From positions 682,001 to 746,000 of the forward strand of contig JASFAU010000015.1 in the NCBI GenBank assembly GCA_039704465.1: 64,000 nucleotides of DNA. Direction: 5' to 3'. This document shows positions 5,688 through 33,900 of this stretch, piece after piece. A program made the translations under genes and the position numbers. Numbering within the stretch: position 1 is the stretch's first letter; every line of letters begins with the position of its first letter. Under the pieces are notes generated by a model. The model had not been told where the DNA came from and did not search any database. It worked only from the letters and a program-made list of their open reading frames with translations. This stretch comes from Plasmodiophora brassicae. Lineage: Eukaryota > Endomyxa > Phytomyxea > Plasmodiophorida > Plasmodiophoridae.

Positions 5688-5736
5688 GATTAACAGTCGT
5701 AACAGCGCTCTGGGCGTCTCGCTCGCGTCCAACGTC

Positions 5737-6772: not shown

Positions 6773-6967
6773 TGTCGAGGACCATGTCCTACCACCGGCA
6801 CACGATGACATTGTGTGGGTGCGCGGCTGTGTCACGTCCACAACAGAGGCTCCGCCACCGTCGCCGTTGCCGGTAACGGCTTTGGCAAGCCCTGTTACAC
6901 TGCGTTACGTCGCCATCGTCTCGCGCCGATGTCGGTGGAATAAATCACTTCGTTATTGTCGTTCTTA
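6773..6967 (+). repeat. Composite element LTR 2
   Basis: 195 bp, same family as LTR 1 with scattered differences (for example GATGACATTGTGTGGG against GATGACGCTGTGACTG). It is followed at 6968 by the same primer-binding site, so it is structurally a 5' LTR. No polypurine tract precedes it. Confidence 0.9.
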
Positions 6968-7496
6968 GATTAACAGTCGTAGCGTTCGCGCGCTTCGAGG
7001 CGGCGAGCCCGCCGGCGCCCGGCGCGCCGGTGCCATCCAGAGCCAGTCCCGCGTCACTGCGTCTCTGCCCTGACCCTGCTTCTGCACAACGCGCCACGAA
7101 CGCCCACTCCAGTCGCGCCACGCGCCAGAGAGCCGAGGCAGATCGTGCAAGCAAGGCAGGCCGTCATTACGGGAATCCAGAACCAGTTCCGGGACGTAAG
7201 CGCCAGGCGTACGCCGGTCGTACGGGCCTCAATCGCTTGCCTCAACCTCTTCTCGATATAACGTTGTCCGCCGGCGCCTTCGGCGTCGGTGTCGTCCCGA
7301 GCCAGGTCCTTCAGTCTCTGTCGTCACTGTCGACTCCGCCCCAGCATATCGCGCCATACATGTCAGCTCTAGCTACGCCACGATCAGTCTCGTGTCGCGT
7401 CAACAAGCCAAGACATACAAGCACGAGCAAGGTCGTGTTGTACATGATCCAGAGTCGAAGATCCAGCCGGGACACGTCCGTTCGACCTCCAACGGC
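6968..7496. other. Internal spacer of composite, no gene seen
   Basis: Begins with GATTAACAGTCGTA (primer-binding site) and then has about 515 bases of GC-rich sequence. Open frames exist on both strands but none shows retroelement motifs. With LTR 2 and LTR 3 it has the form of a TRIM/LARD-like non-autonomous element of about 0.9 kb. Confidence 0.6.
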
Positions 7497-8148: not shown

Positions 8149-8288
8149 GGCGAGTAGAGGCTCAGCGCCTGCGCCTATACGACTGTTAATCTGAGAAAGA
8201 CAATAATGGTATATAACCGATCAGCCGCCCCGCAGCTGCCCCAGAACTGCCCGACTGGCGCAGTCCGTAACTGCCCAACAGACACTGG

Positions 8289-8472
8289 CGCTGTGACAAT
8301 TAGGGGAACGTGCGCTGTGACAATTAGGGGAACGTGCGCTGTGACAATTAGGGGAACGTGCGCTGTGACAATTAGGGGAACGTGCGCTGTGACAATTAGG
8401 GGAACGTGCGCTGTGACAATTAGGGAACGTGCGCTGTGACAATTAGGGGAACGTGCGCTGTGACAATTAGGG
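8289..8472. repeat. 24-bp minisatellite, about 8 copies
   Basis: Tandem copies of CGCTGTGACAATTAGGGGAACGTG. Most units are identical; one lacks a G. It lies just beyond the broken 5' LTR of Copia-1 A. The unit length and lack of spacers rule out CRISPR, and reading frames over it (NCHSARSP) are artefacts. Positions 8208-8288 and 8473-8502 show nothing else. Confidence 0.95.
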
Positions 8473-10224: not shown

Positions 10225-13200
10225 GTGGCGCTGGCCGCCCCCGATCACGATCATCCAAACCAGCCAGAAAACAAGAGCCCGAGCAAGGAGGAGCCGGCCG
10301 AGAAGAAGGAAACGCGCAAGCCCGCGGACGTAAAGCGCGACAGAACGATATCATTGGCGGAGGCGCACGCGAGGTGCGGCCACCTGTCCACGATCACGAT
10401 CAGAAAGGCAGTCAAGAACGGGGCAATCACCGGTCTCAACATCGACGAGGCCGACCTGGCGAGCGACGAGGTGCCCAGGTGCAAGGTGTGCATCGAGGCC
10501 AACCTCAACCGAACGGCGATCCCGCGGAGACGGACACGGACGGTGCTCTCGAAGCTGCAGATCGTCGGGGCGGACCTGCAGACGTTCGACACCAGGTCGC
10601 ATGACGGAAAGACGTACATGGCGTGCTACGTTGACCACGCGACTGGTGTCGGTGCCACGGTCAACCTGGCAAATAAGGGTGACCAGGAGCAAGTCGTCAT
10701 GGACGTGCTGACCCGGCTCGAGGTCATGGGCGGCACACGCGTCGACACGTTCCGCGCCGACCAGGGCGGCGAGTTCACCTCGACGCGCCTGGCGAAGCTG
10801 CTGCGCGAGCGGGGAATCGCACAGGAGTTCAGCGACACGGACCGCCCGCACCAGAACGGTCTCGCGGAGACGTTCGGTGGCAAGATTGTCAAGATGATGC
10901 GCGCAGCTCGTGTCCAGTCAGGCGTCCCGCGCAAGTACGGACCGAGAACGGGCGGCATCAGACGTGGGTAGCCAACCGCGTGCCGCTCCAACGACACGGC
11001 CACCGGACGACGCCAATCGAGGAACTGACGGGGGAACAAGCAGACCTGTCGAGGGCGATGCCATTCGGTTGCGAGGCGTGGGTCAGGATCCGGCGGCAAA
11101 AGAAGTGCAAGCTGGACGCCAGGGCCGAGCGCGCGGTCCACATGGGGGTGTGCATCGACAAGAAGGCGTACCGGCTGCTGCTGTGGCACAGCCGCAAGAT
11201 GATCGAGTCTTCGGACGTGGTCTTCTTCCCCAACGAATTCCCGTTCAAGGATGACAGCGGCTCCCGCGGAGAGGAGACCCGCAAGCGCCAAGAGACGGCG
11301 CAAGCCCAGCTGCAAGGAGGCGGCGATGGCGGTCAAGACGATCGTCATGGGCAAGAAGACGACGGCGGTCGGGACGATCGCGTCGCACGACAAGACGACG
11401 GCGATCGAGAAGGTCGCGTCGGTCAACAACAGGGCGGCGCCAGGAGGATGGCCGCGCCATTCAGCGAGGCGGCGGCGGGGACGACCGTGCCAGGGAACTC
11501 GCAGGTGCCGGTGAAGACCGGCATGACGGACGCGATGAGCAAGCAGCTCAGGGCGGCGGGGATCGAGGACCTGCTGCTCAAGGCGTCCCTGAACCGAGGC
11601 GGTCGACGCGCATCAGAGGAGCGCCCGCTCGGTTTGCCGACGTGGACTACGACGGCGAAGCGCGGCGCCAGAGGGCGGCCAGCGCCAGGGCGGCAGCAGG
11701 GGCTGCCGACAACGTCGACCAGGCGGCAGCAGCAGATGCTGTCGACCACGACAACGAGGCCAACGACGACCCGGACAACGAGGCGGGGATCGAGGACCTG
11801 CTGCTCAAGGCGTCCCTGAACCGAGGCGGTCGACGCGCATCAGAGGAGCGCCCGCTCGGTTTGCCGACGTGGACTACGACGGCGAAGCGCGGCGCCAGAG
11901 GGCGGCCAGCGCCAGGGCGGCAGCAGGGGCTGCCGACAACGTCGACCAGGCGGCAGCAGCAGATGCTGTCGACCACGACAACGAGGCCAACGACGACCCG
12001 GACAACGAGGACCAGGTCAACCAGGACGAGGCGCTCGAGAACGAGGACAGCTACCTGGAGGAGGAGGACGCTGGCAACGCGTTCCTCACTGAGTACGAGG
12101 CCGAGAACGGGCCTGACCGGGACAAGTACCTGGCGGCGCAGGTCGAGGAGATGCAGTCGCTGAAGGAAGCGGGCACGTATGAGATCGTGGACCGCCCGAC
12201 CGACGCTCAAGTGCTGCCAACAATGTTCGTGCACACGACGAAGCGCGACGAGGACGGGGAGATCACGCGCCACAAGGCCCGCTTCTGCGTCAAGGGATGC
12301 TGCGACAAGTTCAAGGGCCAGAAGGAGACGTACTCGCCGACGCTCCGGTATGCGACGTTGCGCATCATGGTGGCGCTGGCGGCCATGCTGGGCGTGGTCA
12401 TCCACCAGCTGGACGTTAAGACGGCGTTCCTGAATGGAGACCTGCCGTACCCGATCTACTGTGAACAGCCGAAGAACTTCGTGGTCGGAGGACGCGGCAA
12501 GGTGATGAAGCTCCTGAAGGCGCTGTACGGCCTGGTCGAGGCGCCGAAGCTCTGGTACGATAAGCTCGTATCAGTTCTGTTCGAAATCGGCTTCACAAGG
12601 GTGACCGGCGACCCGTGCCTGTTCGTTATGTTCACGACGAAGGACGGCCGCAGACAGATCACGATCCTCGGGGTGTTCGTGGACGACTTTATGATGTTTG
12701 GCACGGATCCCGACGTCATCGAGTACGTCAAGGCAGCGTTGGGCAAGAAGTTCAAGATGAAGGACCTCGGCATCGCGAGATGGATCCTGGGGATGCGCAT
12801 CAAGCAGGAGGCAACGCGCATCACGATCGACCAACAGCAGTACGCCAAGGAGGTGGTCGCGCGGTTCCAGACCGACATCGACGAGGCAGCCGCCGGGCGC
12901 CGCTTGCGCGCGCCGGCCACGGCTCTGCCTGTCGGGGCAGATTATGCCCCGGCGAACCGACGGTGTTCCGCACCAGCATGAGCGGTACCGCGAGGGCGTT
13001 GGTTGCCTGGCGCATCTGTCGATCGGCACGATGCCGACAATCACGCACGCGGTGTCGCAGCTGTCGCGTCACCTGAACAACCCGGGTCGGGAGCATTTCG
13101 AGGCGATGCTCCACGTGCTGCGATATGTCCAGAACAACACGGATGTCGGCATCATCTACGCGAAGAGCAAGACACCGGCGACTGAATTCGACCCGATGGC

Positions 13201-17533: not shown

Positions 17534-17717
17534 TGTCGAACAACGTATCCACTACGACCAGCAGCACATGCCTGCAGCACGTGAACGCCGTCACGCACTC
17601 CGCGACTCCGTGCCCGCCGGCGTTGGCAACCGTTACACCGTCGGCGACTACGTCGCCACTGTAACGTCCGCCGCACACGCCGTACGTAATACATCCACTT
17701 CATTATTGTCCTTCTCA
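17534..17717 (+). repeat. Copia-1 B 5' LTR
   Basis: 184 bp, TGTCGAACAACG to CCTTCTCA. Essentially identical to the 3' LTR and to the LTRs of copy E. Confidence 0.95.
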
Positions 17718-17731
17718 GATTAACAGTCGTA
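17718..17731 (+). promoter_or_regulatory. Copia-1 primer-binding site (tRNA-Asn GUU half)
   Basis: GATTAACAGTCGTA abuts the LTR. Its complement, CGACTGTTAATC, is the anticodon arm of a typical tRNA-Asn(GUU), ending at nucleotide 40. The same 12-14 bases follow the LTRs at 5688, 6968, 34,431 and, on the minus strand, near 8191, 23,426 and 27,502. Confidence 0.7.
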
Positions 17732-17760
17732 TAGGCGCAGGCGCTGAGCCTCTACTCGCC

Positions 17761-20700
17761 ATGGCCGAGCGCCAGGCGACGCCTAACACGGATGACGACC
17801 CGCTGCGTCATCTGTCGCTCGAGGAGATCGACACCCGAATTGCCGAAGCGGAGGCAACGATCGCCAGGCAGGAGAAGATCGACCGTCTCCGTGTCCTGCA
17901 GCAGCAGCTGGCGCGTCCGACCAGCTGTACATCGACCCGGCCATGCCGATCATCGCCGAGGCGCACAGCCGAAGCGACGCAGGCCGACTGCCCATGCCCA
18001 AGTTCGACGGTACTCCCGACTCGTTCACGTCCTGGGTTCAGACAGCTGCACTCTGGTTTCGCAATCGTGGGTACGCGGACGTCATCGGGATCAACGAAGA
18101 TGGCTCGCCGACTGCGACAACCGGTACGGCACACGACCCAGCTCTCGAGGCAGCGCGCGCGAGATTCTACTCGTCCACATGCTGGACCACAAGATCGCGT
18201 CCGCGTTGTCTTTGTTTCAGGCAGGCTCGGCTGCCAAGTGCTGGCGCGTGCTGTTCCAGGCGTACAGCCCGTCGTCGCTGGCATCGGTCGTGCGCGCCGT
18301 CCGCGACCTCGTCACGGTCCAGCACATGCCCGGCGAGTCGGTCGCCACGTACGCCGCCCGAGTTCAAGCAGCGGCTCATCGCGTCCGGTCGACGGTACCG
18401 ACCGAGATGCTGTCCCTCACCGACGCATTGGTCGCCGTCCTCATCTTGGCCAACGCATCATCCGATCTCGACGCCGTCGTCGCTGGCCTGCACAATCGTG
18501 CTCTGGACACGCTGCCCAGTGTCTCCGAGGTCGTCGGGTCGTTGACAAGCGAGGAGATCAGAGTCCAAGACGTGCGGGACCGACACGACGCGTTCCAAAC
18601 GGCCAACCGCTCCAGTTGCGCCACATCGACGCGTCCCCGTGGACCACGACGCAACGAGTCCTGCGTCTTCCATCCCGGATCCAAGCACACTAACGGCGAA
18701 TGCACGCTGCAACGACACATCTGGTACCGCGACAGCAACGCGAAAAGCAATACATCCTCACCAACGTCCAACGAGTATCCAACGTCTGGCGCTCATCCGA
18801 TCGATCCGGCGCCCGAGCCGATGCGTGCTTTGTCGGCACGCCACGCCATCGACGTGTACGCGAACTCAGTAGGCCTACTGGACTCAGCGTGTTCCACGAC
18901 GATGACGCCCCTGCGCCGACATCTCAGCTGCTATCGCAAGGGCACCGGACCGGAAGTTGAGCTAGCCGATCTGTCGCGTACGACCACTTCCGGTCGAGGC
19001 GTGACGTCATTCGGCATGGATGTCCAGGCGACGAGTATCGATTCGCTGCACGTTCCCCGACTTGGCCAAGCGCTAGTATCAGTTGGCCAGCTCACCAGAT
19101 CAGGTCACAAGATCGTGTTCGACGGCGATACCGCGAAGATCTACTCGGGGGCCAACTGGACGGCGCCCGTCGGTCAGCCAGTGGCCGTCAGTCAACGAGG
19201 ACACGATAACCTGTACCGGATTCCATTATCCGCTCCAACCTCCGCGCCCGGCACACTTCACTCTGCCCGAGTCTGCTCCTTGATCGCATCCAGCGTCTCA
19301 TGCCGCGTCGCTAAGGTCACCGCCGCAGCTCCAGCTGTCTGGCACGCTCGAACCGGCCACCTGGGTTACGGCAACCTGCGCATCCTGCACAAACGTTGTC
19401 GTGGCATGAAGTTCGACGGGCCAATCCCGAGGCCGAGATCGATGTCCATGTCCTGCGCTGCATGTTTACTCGCCAAGGGCAAACGGTCAACATTCCCTCC
19501 CAGTACGTCGCGCGCGCGTCGTGTTGGCGATCTCGTCCATAGCGATCTGTCCGGACGGTGGCCTGTCGTCGGTGTCGGCGGCTTTGAGTACTACCAGACC
19601 ATGCTGGACGATTCCTCTCGGTACCTGTCCGTCTATCTGCTACGTCGCAAATCGGAGGCGCTCGACGTCATCAAGCACTATGACGCGCGTCTTCGCAACC
19701 AGGAAGGACGTGGTATCCGGACGTTCCAGACTGACGGTGGCGGCGAGTACAACTCCAAGGCGTGCGTCCTGTTCTACAACGAGTCCGGCATCCTGCACCG
19801 CAAATCTGTCCCGTACACGCCCGAGCAGAACGGCCGCGCTGAAAGCGTCAACCACACGCTCTGCGGTATCGAAAGCTCAATCCGGTGCCACTCTCGCATG
19901 CCTGACTCCACGTGGCCCTGGTCGCTGTCCTACTCTGATACTGTGTACAACATCCACCCGAGATCAGTCCTTCCCGGGCGTCGCACATCGTTCGAGGCTG
20001 CTCGTCGCGCCCTACCTAACATCTCGGCCCTTCGTGTCTACGGTTGCGATGCCTATGCCATGCGACCGCATCCAGCCACGAAGAAGCCGAGCAAGTTGGA
20101 GCCTCGTCGTGTTCGCGCTGTGTTTATCGGTTTCACGCCCGGCATGAAGGCTTGGCGGTTCTACGACGTGGGCCGGGAAGACACGTTCGAGAGCACGACT
20201 GCCGAGTTCCTGGAGACCTCGTTCACATTCGGCTTTGGAAGATCCAGCCCTGCTAGTTCATCATCAGCGCCACCGTCCAGTCCCGAGTCGAGCTCTGCGC
20301 CGAACGTTGACACGATCGTCCCGACGCCCGTCTCTTCCGACGCCGTCATGGCACCTCTACCATCGACGTCAGCATCCTCTCTCGCAGCATCCCCTCCCGA
20401 GCCTCCGTCACCTGCCGCTGCGTCATCGCCTTCCGAGATCGTCCGACCGACCGTCGCGCTCACCGTCTCCTGATGACGTATCCACCGACGAAGATGATGA
20501 TGACGCTGAAGATGATCCCGACTACGAAGGTTCGGCGTCCAGCAACGACTCTCCCAACGAAGCTGCCGACCCCGACGTCCACGACAATTCCGACGCTGCT
20601 GATATCGTTGACCACAATGTCATCGACGTGCCACGCCCTCGCCGATCGAATCGTCGTCGTCAACCGCCTGGTGAATGGTGGAAGGCGCCGGAGGCGGCCA

Positions 20701-22589
20701 ATCGTTCGTCGACACGGTGGTCCTCGACGGTCGACGCCTGGTTCCAGAATCCGACCCTAACGTTCCCGACACAGCGCCCTCCTCGTCGCTCCCGCCGACT
20801 GATCCGGCATTGGCAGCAGGTTGAGGAGCGCCGTCTGATCGATCAGGCCATCAGGTCCAACCGTCCGACATGTCGCGGCGCCGCTGCCAAGGCATGTCGA
20901 GCCAAGGTATCCGCCCCGATCGACCCAGCCCGTCTACCACGACCCGACCTGTCGAAGCTGAAAGCGACCGACATTCCCGTACCCAACTCAATGGCCGATG
21001 CCCTCTCATCACCTTTCGCTGGCCACTGGTGGGACGCCGCCGTCACCCAGATGGCAACACTGGACGCCAGGACACGTTCGGCCCGCTAATCGACCTGCCG
21101 AAAAGTAAGATCGCTGTTGGCGCCAAGTGGGTGTTCCGAGTGAAGTCCTCGCTCAGTGGCAACGGTGGCATCCGCAAGTTCACCGCCCGACTCTGTGCTC
21201 AGGGCTTCCGACAACGCCCCGGCATCGACTTCGACGATACGTTCGCGCCGACCGCCCGTGCCACTGCGTTCCTCGTTATCCTAGCGCTCGCGGCGCAGCA
21301 CGGCCTGCATCTTCGCCAGGTCGACTGGGTGGCCGCATACCTGAACGCCGACATGCTCCATGATGTTTACATTCGTCAGCCGGATGGCTTCACCGATCAT
21401 CACGTCCCGTACCGAGTTCGTCAACTGCAAAAGGCCCTTTATGGAACGAAACAAGGCGCCGAACGTTGGTACAAGACGCTTCGGGAGATGCTGTTATCAC
21501 TCGGATTCGAATCGATCATCGCGGACCCCTGCGTCTTCCGGTACGATCGCGATGGAAAGTTCATGATCATGTCGGTGCACACCGACGACGGTCTGCTGGC
21601 GTACAATGACGTCCCGTTCGCGGAATCCGTTCTCGAGAAGCTCTCCACGATGGCCGAGATCACCGATCAAGGTGAACCGTCGACCCTGCTTGGCATGCGC
21701 ATCCGACGCGAACCTGGCACCGGCGCCATCACCCTTGACCAAGCCGAGTACATCGAGAAGGTGTTGAGCGACTTCAACATGTCGCATTGTCATCCGGTCG
21801 ACACACCGCACCAGCCTGGCGTTCACCTATCAACGACAATGAGTCCACAAAGCGACCTCGACCGTGACGAAATGGCGACCAAGCCGTACCTCAAACTTAT
21901 TGGCTGCCTGACATGGCTCGCCCATCGATGCCGTCCCGACATCGCGTACATAACGAATGTACTGGCCCAATTCTCCTCGAATCCCGGCATCCAGCATTGG
22001 CGTGCGGGGCAACGCGTTCTTAAGTACCTCGCCGGCACCATGACGCACGGCATCCGATACGAACGCCAGCCCGAAGATCGTCTGATCGCATACGCCGACG
22101 CTGATTGGGCATCCGACCCTGACACGCGACGGTCGCGCTCCGGCCACATCATCCTGCTGGCTGGCGGCCCCGTGCACTGGCAGTCACGTCGCCAAGACCT
22201 GGGCGCAGTCAAAGTTAGCTTATCGTCCACACATGCAGAGATCAAGTCGCTGTGTGCTGTTACCCGCCAGCTGGCCTGGATCCGGTCATTCCTGACCGAA
22301 ATCGGCTTCGCACGCTCCAGTCCGACGATCGTATACGAGGACAATCAAGGCGCGAAGGCCTGGTCTGGCTATCGTCGGATGGATGATCGCACGAAGGACA
22401 TCGAGGTGCAGTTTCACTACACCCGGGAGGCCGTCGAGGCCAGTTTGATCGTGGTCCACAAGTGCCCGTCCGCCGAGATGGCTGCAGACTACCTCACGAA
22501 GCCCGCTCTCAGCACCTCGTATCATGCGAACCTGCTCCTGGCCGGCATCATCGACACAAGTCCCAGGCCGTGTGCTGCTGGAGGGGGCG
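17761..22589 (+). pseudogene. Copia-1 B gag-pol (several frameshifts)
   Basis: Gag begins at ATG 17,761 (MAERQATPNTDDD). A one-base loss near 17,935 and another near 18,150 break the frame; from there gag, protease (LLDSACSTT), GAG-pre-integrase, integrase (HSDLSG, TDGGGEY, PEQNGRAE) run open to 20,473. The acidic/Ser-rich linker and RT start are in another frame to 21,089, and RT (DTFGPLIDLP...; SVHTDDGLLAYN) plus RNase H are open to the end (KCPSAEMAADYLTKPALS). The stop lies inside the 3' LTR. Positional comparison with copy E shows all breaks are small indels. Confidence 0.85.
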
Positions 22590-22773
22590 TGTCGAACAAC
22601 GTATCCACTACGACCAGCAGCACATGCCTGCAGCACGTGAACGCCGTCACGCACTCCGCGACTCCGTGCCCGCCGGCGTTGGCAACCGTTACACCGTCGG
22701 CGACTACGTCGCCACTGTAACGTCCGCCGCACACGCCGTACGTAATACATCCACTTCATTATTGTCCTTCTCA
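22590..22773 (+). repeat. Copia-1 B 3' LTR
   Basis: 184 bp, TG...CA, preceded by the polypurine tract and followed by target duplication AAGTC. Confidence 0.95.
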
Positions 22774-23173: not shown

Positions 23174-23178
23174 GCTGC

Positions 23179-23305
23179 TGAAAAACGCGGGCGCCGCTGG
23201 GAATCGAACCCAGGGCCAACGGTTGAACGTACCGCTGCTGTACCACTCAGCTACGGCGCCTGAAGTCCGACTGGCGTGAGGATTGGATGTATGTAATTCC
23301 TGACA
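23179..23305 (-). repeat. TRIM 3' LTR
   Basis: 127 bp, identical to 23,427-23,553 by eye. It contains the tRNA-like gene 23,190-23,260 and the T5 run four bases beyond its end. Confidence 0.9.
23190..23260 (-). tRNA. tRNA-like gene in the TRIM 3' LTR (anticodon position GUU, odd loop)
   Basis: 71 nt fold as a full cloverleaf: acceptor GGCGCCG/CGGCGCC (7 bp), D arm GCTG-AGTGGTA-CAGC, anticodon stem GCGGT/ACCGT with loop ACGTTCA, five-base variable loop, T arm CTGGG-TTCGATT-CCCAG. The A box TAGCTGAGTGG and B box GGTTCGATTCC fit Pol III consensus, and TTTTT follows after CGCG. Positions 34-36 read GUU (Asn), but the loop has C at 33 and C at 37 where U and a purine are expected, so a working role in translation is doubtful. 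CCA is not encoded. Confidence 0.7.
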
Positions 23306-23314
23306 CGCCCCCTC
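23306..23314 (-). promoter_or_regulatory. TRIM polypurine tract
   Basis: GAGGGGGCG on the minus strand immediately before the 3' LTR. It is the same nonamer found before the 3' LTRs of Copia-1 at 22,581 and 39,286 and (slightly changed) of the fragment at 39,986. Confidence 0.8.
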
Positions 23315-23412
23315 AATCCGTAGCCAGGTGTGACGATGGTGTCTGTCCTGGGATCTACTACGGAAGAGGGCCCATTGGCGCCACGCATTTCTGTATGGCT
23401 ATGTATAGCGCA

Positions 23413-23426
23413 TACGACTGTTAATC
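23413..23426 (-). promoter_or_regulatory. TRIM primer-binding site
   Basis: GATTAACAGTCGTA directly after the 5' LTR, identical to the Copia-1 site; complementary to a tRNA-Asn(GUU) anticodon arm. Confidence 0.8.
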
Positions 23427-23553
23427 TGAAAAACGCGGGCGCCGCTGGGAATCGAACCCAGGGCCAACGGTTGAACGTACCGCTGCTGTACCACTCAGCT
23501 ACGGCGCCTGAAGTCCGACTGGCGTGAGGATTGGATGTATGTAATTCCTGACA
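23427..23553 (-). repeat. TRIM 5' LTR
   Basis: 127 bp. It begins (minus strand) TGTCAGGAATTACATACATCC and ends CGCGTTTTTCA. It contains the second tRNA-like gene. Confidence 0.9.
23438..23508 (-). tRNA. tRNA-like gene in the TRIM 5' LTR
   Basis: Same 71 nt as 23,190-23,260. In this LTR the T5 terminator falls just before the primer-binding site, so a Pol III transcript starting here would stop inside the LTR and could not be a full-length genomic RNA. Confidence 0.7.
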
Positions 23554-23558
23554 GCTGC

Positions 23559-30928: not shown

Positions 30929-33900
30929 CTGCTCCCGGGTTGGTTGGCAGCTCACCCTCTCTCGATACACGAATGTTCTTCGTCCTCGCAACCCGACACT
31001 GTCCTCGTCACTGCTCTTTGTTTCGCAACTGTTCATTCATCTCATCATTTATTCGTTCCGTTTCAATCCACGGGCGATCGCCCGTGGGCGACGACGGCCC
31101 TTTTGGACTGTGGAGCGACATCTTCCTTCGTCGACGCCGGTTTCGCCCGCCGCTATGGCCTGCCACTCCGCTCCAAAGCACAACCGATTCCAGTCAAGGT
31201 TGTTGACGGCCGTCACCTGCCACCGATCACATTGGAGACGGCGCCATTGCCGTGTTCCGTCAACGGGGCCTTCCACGACACAATTGTCCTCAACGTTATT
31301 GACGCTCCGAGTCACCGTATAATCCTGGGACTGCCCTGGCTCGAACAGCACAATCCGGATATCGACTGGCTTCGTCGCACCGTACGCGAACGCATTACTC
31401 GGGGATCACCGCGTTTGTGGCTCGATGCTCGGGCCGGTGGGAACCCCACCGGCTCTGCCGACACGGTTGCCTGCTCTGCTGACACGGTCGCCCTTTCTGA
31501 TGCCACAGTCGCCTGCTCTCCTGACACGGCCGTCTGCTCTCCTGACACGGCCGCGTTATTATGCTGCGCCGAGGGGTTGCCCGTCGAACCCGGCCCGCTT
31601 CCGAGCGCACCGCCTTTGGACATTGATCACTTCGTCGCCTCGTCGTCTCCCGTTACTGCCCAGCCGTTACCACCGGTGGGTGCTTCTCTGGTCGCCGTCG
31701 ACGTTCCGGAACTAGTGCAGCCTGCGCCTGCTACTGACCAGCCATTAGTGCCGGTGGCTGCTTCTCTGGTCGACGGTCCGGAACTCGTGCCGCCCGTGTC
31801 TGCCGCTGGTCGACCAGAGAATTCCGCCGCACCGCCTGAGTCGGCGACCGCAGCTGCCGCCACTGTTCCGCCACCGCTTCCGCCTCTTTCGTGCTTGGCA
31901 CCGGCCCCCTCTTGTTCAGAACATCCCTCGGTTTCGCCGGCACGTCGCCGCGCGGGTCGACGCGCCCCTTTCGCCTGCTCAGGGCGCAGCAGTCCACACG
32001 GGTCACTCGCCTCCCAGCTGTGTGCGCTCGTGGGGCTGGTCGCCCTCCTGGTATTGATTGCCAACAGCTCCGCCCCGAGACGTGCGCCTTCCATGCTTCC
32101 GGATCCCTGCGTCATCGACAACGCCTTGCTGACTTCCGTGCCACAGGCCTCCACGTCGTCGTCGGTTGGAACGGATCCGTCGACTACGGAGCCGCCAGGC
32201 GAACCTGTGGAGCCGCTCTCCATCGCGTTTGTTTCCGCCGAACCGTTCTTAGACGACGTGCAAGACGGCGCAGACTGCTATGCCATCCACTACACATGGT
32301 CACCGTCCGATTCCGCTGCCCACGCCGCGGAACTACCGCCGCAATATCAGGAGTTTACTGACGTGTTCGATAAGGCGAACTCAACGACTCTTCCTGATCA
32401 CCGATCGTTCGACTGTCCGATTGACCTGAAACCTGGTGGCGACCCGCCGTATTGCCGTCTGTACGGGCTGTCACCCCGGGAACAAGAAGCCTTGAAGGAG
32501 TATCTCAGGATCAACCTGGAAGCTAATCTCATTCGTCCATCCCGTTCATCGGCGGGCGCCCCAATTCTGTTCGTCAAGAAGAAGGACGGTAGTCTTCGCC
32601 TGTGCGTAGATTACCGTGGTCTAAACTCTGTTACTATCAAGAACCGATATCCGGTTCCACTTATCGACCAGCTCTTGATCCAGCTCGGCTCCGGAACAAT
32701 CTTCACGAAAATCGACCTCCGCAGCGCCTATAACCAAGTTCGGATCCGAGAAGGCGATGAGTGGAAGACGGCCTTCCGCACGCCGTACGGCTTGTTCGAG
32801 TACTTAGTCATGCCGTTTGGCTTAGCCAACGCGCCGGCCTCCTTCCAGTACTTCATGAACGAGACGTTCAAGGATTTCCTTGATGTATTTGTGGTAATCT
32901 ACTTGGACGACATCCTGATCTACTCATCGACTCCCGAGGACCATGAACGCCATGTCCGTCTCGTCCTACACCGACTCCGCACTGCTCAACTCCACGCTAA
33001 ACTGGAGAAGTGCGTCTTCAATACGGACGAAGTGGAATTTTTAGGTTTCTTGGTGTCCTCCTCCGGGATACGGGTTGAACCCTCCAGGATCGATTGCATT
33101 CTCTCGTGGCAACAGCCGACCGACGTCCACGGGGTGCAGGTGTTTCTCGGGTTCGCTAACTTCTATCGCAAGTTCGTTCCCCACTTCGCAGAGCTGGCCT
33201 TACCGCTGACAAATCTCACGCGTGATAACGTGCCGTTTCGTTGGGATCAATCGGCAGACGCCGCATTCACGGCGCTCAAGGTTGCTTTCACGTCAGCCCC
33301 TGTCCTTGCTCATTTCGACCCAGATCGCCCGTGCGAAGTGGAAACGGATGCTTCCGATTTCGCGGTGGCAATGGTCTTGTCGCAGCGGGGCCCCGATGAT
33401 GAACTTCACCCGTTGGCATTCTTCTCGCGCAAGCTCGCGCCTACTGATATCAATTTTCCTATCTACGACAAGGAACTTCTCGCGGTCGTCCAGACCTTCG
33501 AAAAGTGGCGTCAGTTCCTGGACTCATCGCGACACCAGACCGTCATCCACAGCGATCATCGGAATCTGGAATACTTCACCAGCACTCACAAACTGAATCG
33601 TCGTCAAGTCCGATGGTCCCAACTGCTTAACGAATTTGATTTCGTTATCCAACACCGACCAGGCCGTCTTCATGGCAAGGCGGACGCCCTGACTCGTCGC
33701 CCCGAATACGCGCCTTCTGATCAGGATGAGGTTGTGCTCCAGCAGTCACTCCTGCTCCTTCCAGCGTCGCGGCTCGGGCCAGGACCCCTACAGGAGGTCC
33801 AGATCAACGTGGCCGATACTACAACCGACGCACTCCTCGATCGTATCCGCCGCAACCAAGCTTCCGACCCGTTTGTGTGCCGCACCCGTCAGCGACTTCA

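Follow-up and report, generated by a model that had tools for sequence, protein, structure and literature searches.

A 375-bp element with a tRNA-like unit in each LTR

At positions 23179 to 23553 of the window, by which we mean the whole 64-kb stretch of Plasmodiophora brassicae DNA analysed here, lies a 375-bp LTR element on the minus strand, in which two LTRs of 127 bp, 100% identical to each other, enclose an internal region of 121 bp. In the sense of the element, the 5' LTR occupies 23427-23553, the internal region 23306-23426 and the 3' LTR 23179-23305, and each LTR reads TGTC...TTTTTCA with a U3 of 45 bp. A primer-binding site (PBS; 23407-23426, minus strand) abuts the 5' LTR, the polypurine tract GAGGGGGCG (PPT; 23306-23314, minus strand) abuts the 3' LTR, and the whole is flanked by a 5-bp target site duplication, GCTGC, at 23174-23178 and 23554-23558. 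Eight ORFs of at least 30 aa overlap the element, the longest of which (115 aa) extends past its edge. The LTR mini-element described in the original prediction is thus confirmed, well beyond chance, and we reject a chance repeat as a reading of it. A plasmid collection held no match to the element, which carries little weight for a protist.

ARAGORN calls a tRNA gene in the 5' LTR (23437-23508) and another in the 3' LTR (23189-23260), both on the minus strand, and none elsewhere in the window. Each unit scores 57.6 bits against the Rfam tRNA model (RF00005; E 1.2e-11, gathering score 29), and the LTRs have no Rfam match to 5S rRNA at E up to 1. In the 5' LTR, an A box TAGCTGAGTGG (23491-23501, minus strand, LTR position 53) and a B box GGTTCGATTCC (23448-23458, minus strand, LTR position 96) match the Pol III promoter consensus. 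A T5 tract ends each LTR, at 23429-23433 (element position 121) and 23181-23185 (element position 369), both on the minus strand, and these are the only runs of four or more T in the sense of the element. The tRNA-like Pol III promoter predicted for each LTR is therefore present, as is the anticodon loop ACGTTCA with C33 and C37, which ARAGORN labels Asn-GTT. Of the 71-nt unit with a T5 four bases later that had been proposed, the unit stands, with a called length of 72 (the 71 plus the last base) and the T5 three bases later.

The product of a neighbouring gene, tubulin chaperone D, shows 100% identity to a P. brassicae protein across 94% of the query. In one genome (21 contigs, 25.3 Mb), searches with the whole element, with the LTR and with the internal region recovered at least seven loci with at least ten LTR copies, namely, two full copies, one solo LTR, two Copia hybrids and two broken copies. 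The full copies, in the window (contig C15) and on C3, are identical across 375 bp and have different target duplications (GCTGC versus GTGAT), and the solo LTR, on C14, has its own, GACAT; 5-bp duplications are thus found at all three non-hybrid loci with intact ends, the remaining four of the seven loci being broken or hybrid. Of the broken copies, that on C16 has diverged further and is a tandem fragment in the order internal-LTR-internal-LTR, with part of U3 missing from both LTRs, and that on C2 is one internal region plus LTR, broken on its left side. The 121-bp internal region gave six matches at E up to 10, every one at a family locus, and no Copia match at that threshold. The A and B boxes are exact in 9 of the 10 LTR copies found, a conservation weakly tested by the seven loci recovered, and the T5 and the tRNA unit are kept in all 10; the most diverged copy, on C1, differs by a single change in the B box and a single insertion in the D loop. 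The family foreseen by the original prediction is therefore real, and neither of two outcomes that would have spoken against it, a tRNA unit inserted by chance at this site alone or a lack of LTRs without the internal region, was encountered.

Primer-binding site and Copia hybrids

Immediately downstream of the 5' LTR come 14 bases that are perfectly complementary to a segment of the anticodon arm of host tRNA-Asn(GTT), for which we found four genes carrying this 14-nt segment. When the next bases are included, pairing with nucleotides 22-41 of this tRNA is possible over 20 nt, with a single G-U, and ends in its anticodon stem. The tRNA-like unit was also considered as the element's own primer and rejected, since it contains no stretch longer than 4 nt that is exactly complementary to the 20-nt PBS, compared to 14 nt in tRNA-Asn. 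On the strength of this complementarity, the primer is likely a host tRNA-Asn(GTT) cut near the anticodon. At the level of the genome, the PBS together with the LTR end occurs at 94 sites with at most one mismatch, compared to none for a reversed-pattern control.

This PBS is common to the window element and to two coding LTR retrotransposon families of the same genome, Copia-A and Copia-B, whose leaders pair with tRNA-Asn over 14-15 nt. A Copia-A copy lies in the window at 17534-22773 on the plus strand (LTRs 17534-17717 and 22590-22773, duplication AAGTC), with its reading frames broken into several ORFs; Copia-B is the type whose gag start comes after the PBS at window positions 5688 and 27502. 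Copia-A also has the PPT of the window element at its 3' LTR junction: the PPT/LTR junction GAGGGGGCGTGTC recurs in Copia-A at 22581 and 39286, and, if one mismatch is allowed, the window contains five matches to it, compared to 0.27 expected. Among the best 120 of 540 matches to the Copia-A reverse transcriptase frame, the nearest is a P. brassicae protein (85%), followed by two unnamed proteins (59 and 55%), with Puccinia proteins at 36-37%, so that transfer from rust fungi is unsupported, as judged on this frame alone.

Two loci join the mini-element to Copia physically. On C12, the order is Copia-A LTR, PBS, Helenus internal region, Helenus LTR, PBS, Copia-A body and Copia-A LTR (Helenus being the element class discussed below). 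The Helenus unit of 248 bp (middle plus LTR) is bordered on either side by a copy of the shared LTR end and PBS, and its middle differs from the window copy by one base; the Copia-A has both LTRs and its own duplication, TGCAT, and sits in a Copia-B copy. The structure could have arisen by recombination with a one-LTR circle or, equally well, by template switching within a particle shared by the two elements. On C1, the tRNA-LTR is followed by the PBS and then by the Copia-B gag start, at a truncated and rearranged locus. Joined at the PBS, these hybrids provide a physical link between the element and a helper that goes beyond inference from shared sequence. Taken with the shared PBS and PPT, they suggest that Copia, named in the original prediction as the source of the enzymes, is the probable helper partner.

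Such mixing extends to other elements. For the 62 of the 94 PBS sites that have both flanks (the other 32 were excluded), single-linkage clustering of the flanks at 75% identity sorted the upstream flanks into nine clusters, one of which (LTR6) is not an LTR, and the downstream flanks into eleven; the two sets are combined across the shared PBS, at sites that include window positions 5688, 17718, 27502 and 8181. Among these 62 sites, the Helenus LTR lies upstream of its own middle at three, of Copia-A at one and of Copia-B at one, the Helenus middle follows a Copia-A LTR at one, and other LTR and internal modules are likewise mixed at the PBS. The PBS behaves as if it were a general exchange point among the elements that share it.

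Several further arrangements were seen around this PBS. A second group with the same PBS, from 6965-6981 of the window onward, has the LTR named LTR2 in common and differs in its leader (INT3), accounts for 9 of the 62 sites and may be another non-autonomous family, with no tRNA in its LTR; in one INT3 example (locus L055), pairing with tRNA-Asn likewise extends over 20 nt with one G-U. At C2:1514722-1517696 (G000), five PBS-like sites about 740 bp apart point in one direction, which, judged by site positions alone, looks like a tandem array of LTR and internal units. At C1:1103486-1104242 (L007:744-1500), the PBS is followed by nine bases identical to the start of the Helenus middle, with antisense Copia-B gag before it and an AT-rich repeat, of which there are five other good genome copies, after it; a second tRNA-LTR at C1:1103486 was rejected, as the box-B-like letters before this PBS are antisense Copia-B gag. 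Within the window, LTR-like sequence preceding the PBS at 8178 contains a 24-bp minisatellite of 7.8 copies (8288-8472), and a Copia-like coding region contains a perfect 227-bp tandem duplication (11555-12010).

Relation to Helenus and other known elements

The original prediction held that no tRNA equivalent of plant Cassandra elements had been described. This was wrong, as Helenus (Kojima 2024, PMC10886601) is that equivalent, and the interpretation given with the prediction is, as a whole, partly supported. The available text of PMC10886601 defines Helenus as terminal-repeat retrotransposons in miniature (TRIMs) with tRNA-derived sequence in their LTRs and reports them from fungi, animals and plants, with A and B boxes in both LTRs, a PBS, a PPT and no transposition genes, as in the window element. 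The latter also agrees with Helenus in having two LTRs within a total length below about 1.3 kb, in the placement of PBS and PPT, in duplications of 4-5 bp and in a shared PBS, and is assigned to it by architecture. Further parallels in the same available text are 5-bp duplications and a mostly anticodon-loop PBS common with Copia in fungal Helenus, tRNA-Asn-GTT as a primer (named once), solo LTRs flanked by duplications, and a zebrafish family that occurs in tandem arrays. Since this architecture was named in 2024, the P. brassicae element is a further member from another branch of life and not a new kind.

What is new here is the host group and the Copia hybrids, along with a primer and a terminator worked out in more detail. 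The host is Rhizarian, whereas the words "Rhizaria" and "protist" are absent from the main text of PMC10886601, so that tRNA-LTR mini-elements now extend to a eukaryotic branch that the founding paper does not name. Among the matches listed from the open-licence literature, we saw no Rhizarian report of such an element, and none is named in the available text of two P. brassicae genome papers (PMC6823432 and PMC4815078) or of a choanoflagellate survey (PMC6875170); a 2026 meeting report, as far as its text was available, mentions Helenus in passing. Helenus-Copia hybrids were found here, whereas PMC10886601 does not use "hybrid," "chimer" or "template switch." According to its available text, helpers were inferred from shared sequence, the one Copia pair of a fungal Helenus has internal ends but not LTRs in common, and how the dependence of such mini-elements persists is not known. 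There, too, the predicted tRNAs are mostly non-functional, multiple origins are preferred and Pol III transcription is left unproven.

Among other known systems, tRNA-derived SINEs are likewise non-coding elements with a tRNA-derived Pol III promoter. To our knowledge, they lack LTRs, a PBS and an integrase-type duplication, and Drosophila copia and yeast Ty5 are autonomous and carry no tRNA gene in their LTRs. The latter two resemble the window element in priming from a tRNA anticodon loop (cited in the available text of PMC10886601). The plant TRIM Cassandra has a Pol III gene with promoter and terminator in each LTR, but this is 5S rRNA instead of a tRNA, and its autonomous partner is called unknown in the available text of PMC7215508; with a tRNA and no 5S match in its LTR, membership of the window element in Cassandra is rejected. 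The nemertean TRIM Ajax also combines an LTR Pol III promoter sequence with 5-bp duplications, but the sequence is partial 5S rRNA (available text of PMC10886601).

Proposed cycle and alternative explanations

Our main reading, to which we assign a probability of about 0.88, is that the window element is a non-autonomous, Helenus-type TRIM, each LTR of which carries a Pol III promoter derived from a tRNA, and that it follows the cycle below, of which the transcription part is inferred from the sequence. Pol III would initiate in the 5' LTR, at its tRNA-like unit or close to it, and most transcripts would end at the T5 three bases past the unit, giving an LTR-limited RNA of about 75-80 nt. A minority would read through to the T5 of the 3' LTR; from the positions of the features, the resulting RNA would be about 328 nt long, with nearly the whole tRNA-like unit as its repeated R and a U5 of a few bases. 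Host tRNA-Asn(GTT), cut near the anticodon and complementary to the PBS, would prime reverse transcription there. Copia-A, and perhaps Copia-B, would provide reverse transcriptase and integrase, the PBS being common to both and the PPT and the 5-bp duplication to Copia-A. Exchange at the shared PBS would then account for the Copia hybrid structures seen on C12 and C1.

The terminator bears on how often the full-length RNA could arise. The first T run within 50 bases after host nuclear tRNA genes (n = 45) is T4 in 15, T5 in 22, T6 in 5, T7 in 2 and T8 in 1, so that T5, judged by these flanks, is an ordinary Pol III stop in this genome. No other length is as frequent, and Pol III would therefore be expected to terminate mostly within the 5' LTR; because it would seldom cross this LTR, a long RNA would need read-through or another polymerase. 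Retention of the T5 thus favours LTR-limited RNA, with the full template RNA as the predicted exception. The LTR ends of other PBS-sharing modules are also T-rich, which suggests that the T5 tract may serve as terminator and LTR end alike. For LTR elements with Pol III promoters, this poses the question of how a template RNA crosses the terminator of its own 5' LTR, for which at least seven loci and a likely helper in one 25-Mb genome provide a small, clean test case. Computed folds add little: the single tRNA-like unit folds modestly better than shuffles (z -2.13; -1.49 with its trailer), and its best single predicted structure is not a cloverleaf. For the proposed 328-nt RNA, the computed fold is much more stable than those of shuffles (z -6.97) and pairs one tRNA unit, by its 5' half, with the 3' half of the other. 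We draw no conclusion from this, as such pairing is favoured by the direct repeats and their self-complementary GGCGCC arm.

A broader scenario, possible but tentative, is that the shared PBS is a swap point at which the tRNA-LTR element, with its Pol III LTR, and full Copia elements, with their Pol II LTRs, exchange these LTRs. Copia would thereby gain a tRNA promoter, as on C1, a Copia provirus would carry Helenus cargo, as on C12, and the terminator of the 5' LTR would turn most Helenus transcription into free tRNA-like RNA of 75-80 nt.

The strongest competitor to the main reading, which we consider unlikely, is that Pol II makes the genomic RNA from the short U3, the tRNA-like unit serving RNase P processing, first-strand transfer, insulation or the production of a by-product RNA. 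The resemblance of the T5 to a normal host terminator argues against Pol III crossing the 5' LTR. Moreover, ARAGORN finds no tRNA in 28 of 30 PBS loci, the two exceptions having a Helenus LTR, nor in any of 20 further PBS loci, and these tRNA-free elements with the same PBS presumably use Pol II. Yet the U3 is no longer than 45 bp, the A and B boxes match the consensus and are unchanged in 9 of 10 copies, and Cassandra, which faces a similar terminator problem, is reportedly transcribed from LTR to LTR (available text of PMC10886601).

Considerably less probable is that the tRNA-LTR belongs to an autonomous Copia-B subfamily, of which the 375-bp copies would be deletion derivatives. On C1, the tRNA-LTR does lie directly upstream of a Copia-B PBS and gag start, but this arrangement occurs at 1 of the 62 PBS sites examined (94 in total) and at a truncated and rearranged locus. 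Unlike what a simple deletion would leave, the internal region matched no Copia, and the mixing of modules at the PBS in other elements can explain the C1 locus without such a subfamily.

That a host tRNA gene was captured by chance, or that the unit decodes as tRNA-Asn, is very improbable, despite the good covariance score and the name given by ARAGORN, in that the unit is present in every LTR copy found. No host nuclear tRNA gene of the same sequence was found among 45 compared; the best identity is 49/72 (Ala-TGC), and in a comparison to 25 genes with looser gaps, the best is 55 aligned identities. These 45 comprise 41 of the 46 nuclear genes among 63 listed, plus the four tRNA-Asn genes, with contig C21 taken as mitochondrial and excluded; the 63 were scored out of 482 candidates, and the list is incomplete, as the Helenus units themselves are absent from it. 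No clear parent of the LTR unit is seen among these genes, and its origin from a particular host tRNA is not supported. The C33, C37 and C discriminator of the unit are unsuited to tRNA-Asn, and the four host tRNA-Asn genes differ from it, so that it does not qualify as a functional tRNA-Asn and we reject it as a decoding tRNA. This supports the proposal, made with the original prediction, of selection for promoter or fold instead of decoding, and makes the element a caution against false tRNA-Asn calls.

Finally, an assembly artefact or segmental duplication, to which the 100% identity of the C15 and C3 copies over 375 bp might point, has a negligible probability, given that flanks and target duplications differ and that empty sites could be read for both full copies. 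The equivalent of the window site is a paralogous stretch, C16:647494-648128 (90% and 85% identity on the two sides), which reads ...CAGCCTA GCTGC ACCTATGATG..., with a single GCTGC and without the element, as expected for an insertion. For the C3 copy, the equivalent lies inside the window itself, in a Gypsy copy with one GTGAT at 33222-33226 on the plus strand. The family is small and recently active in P. brassicae (Rhizaria, Endomyxa, Phytomyxea).
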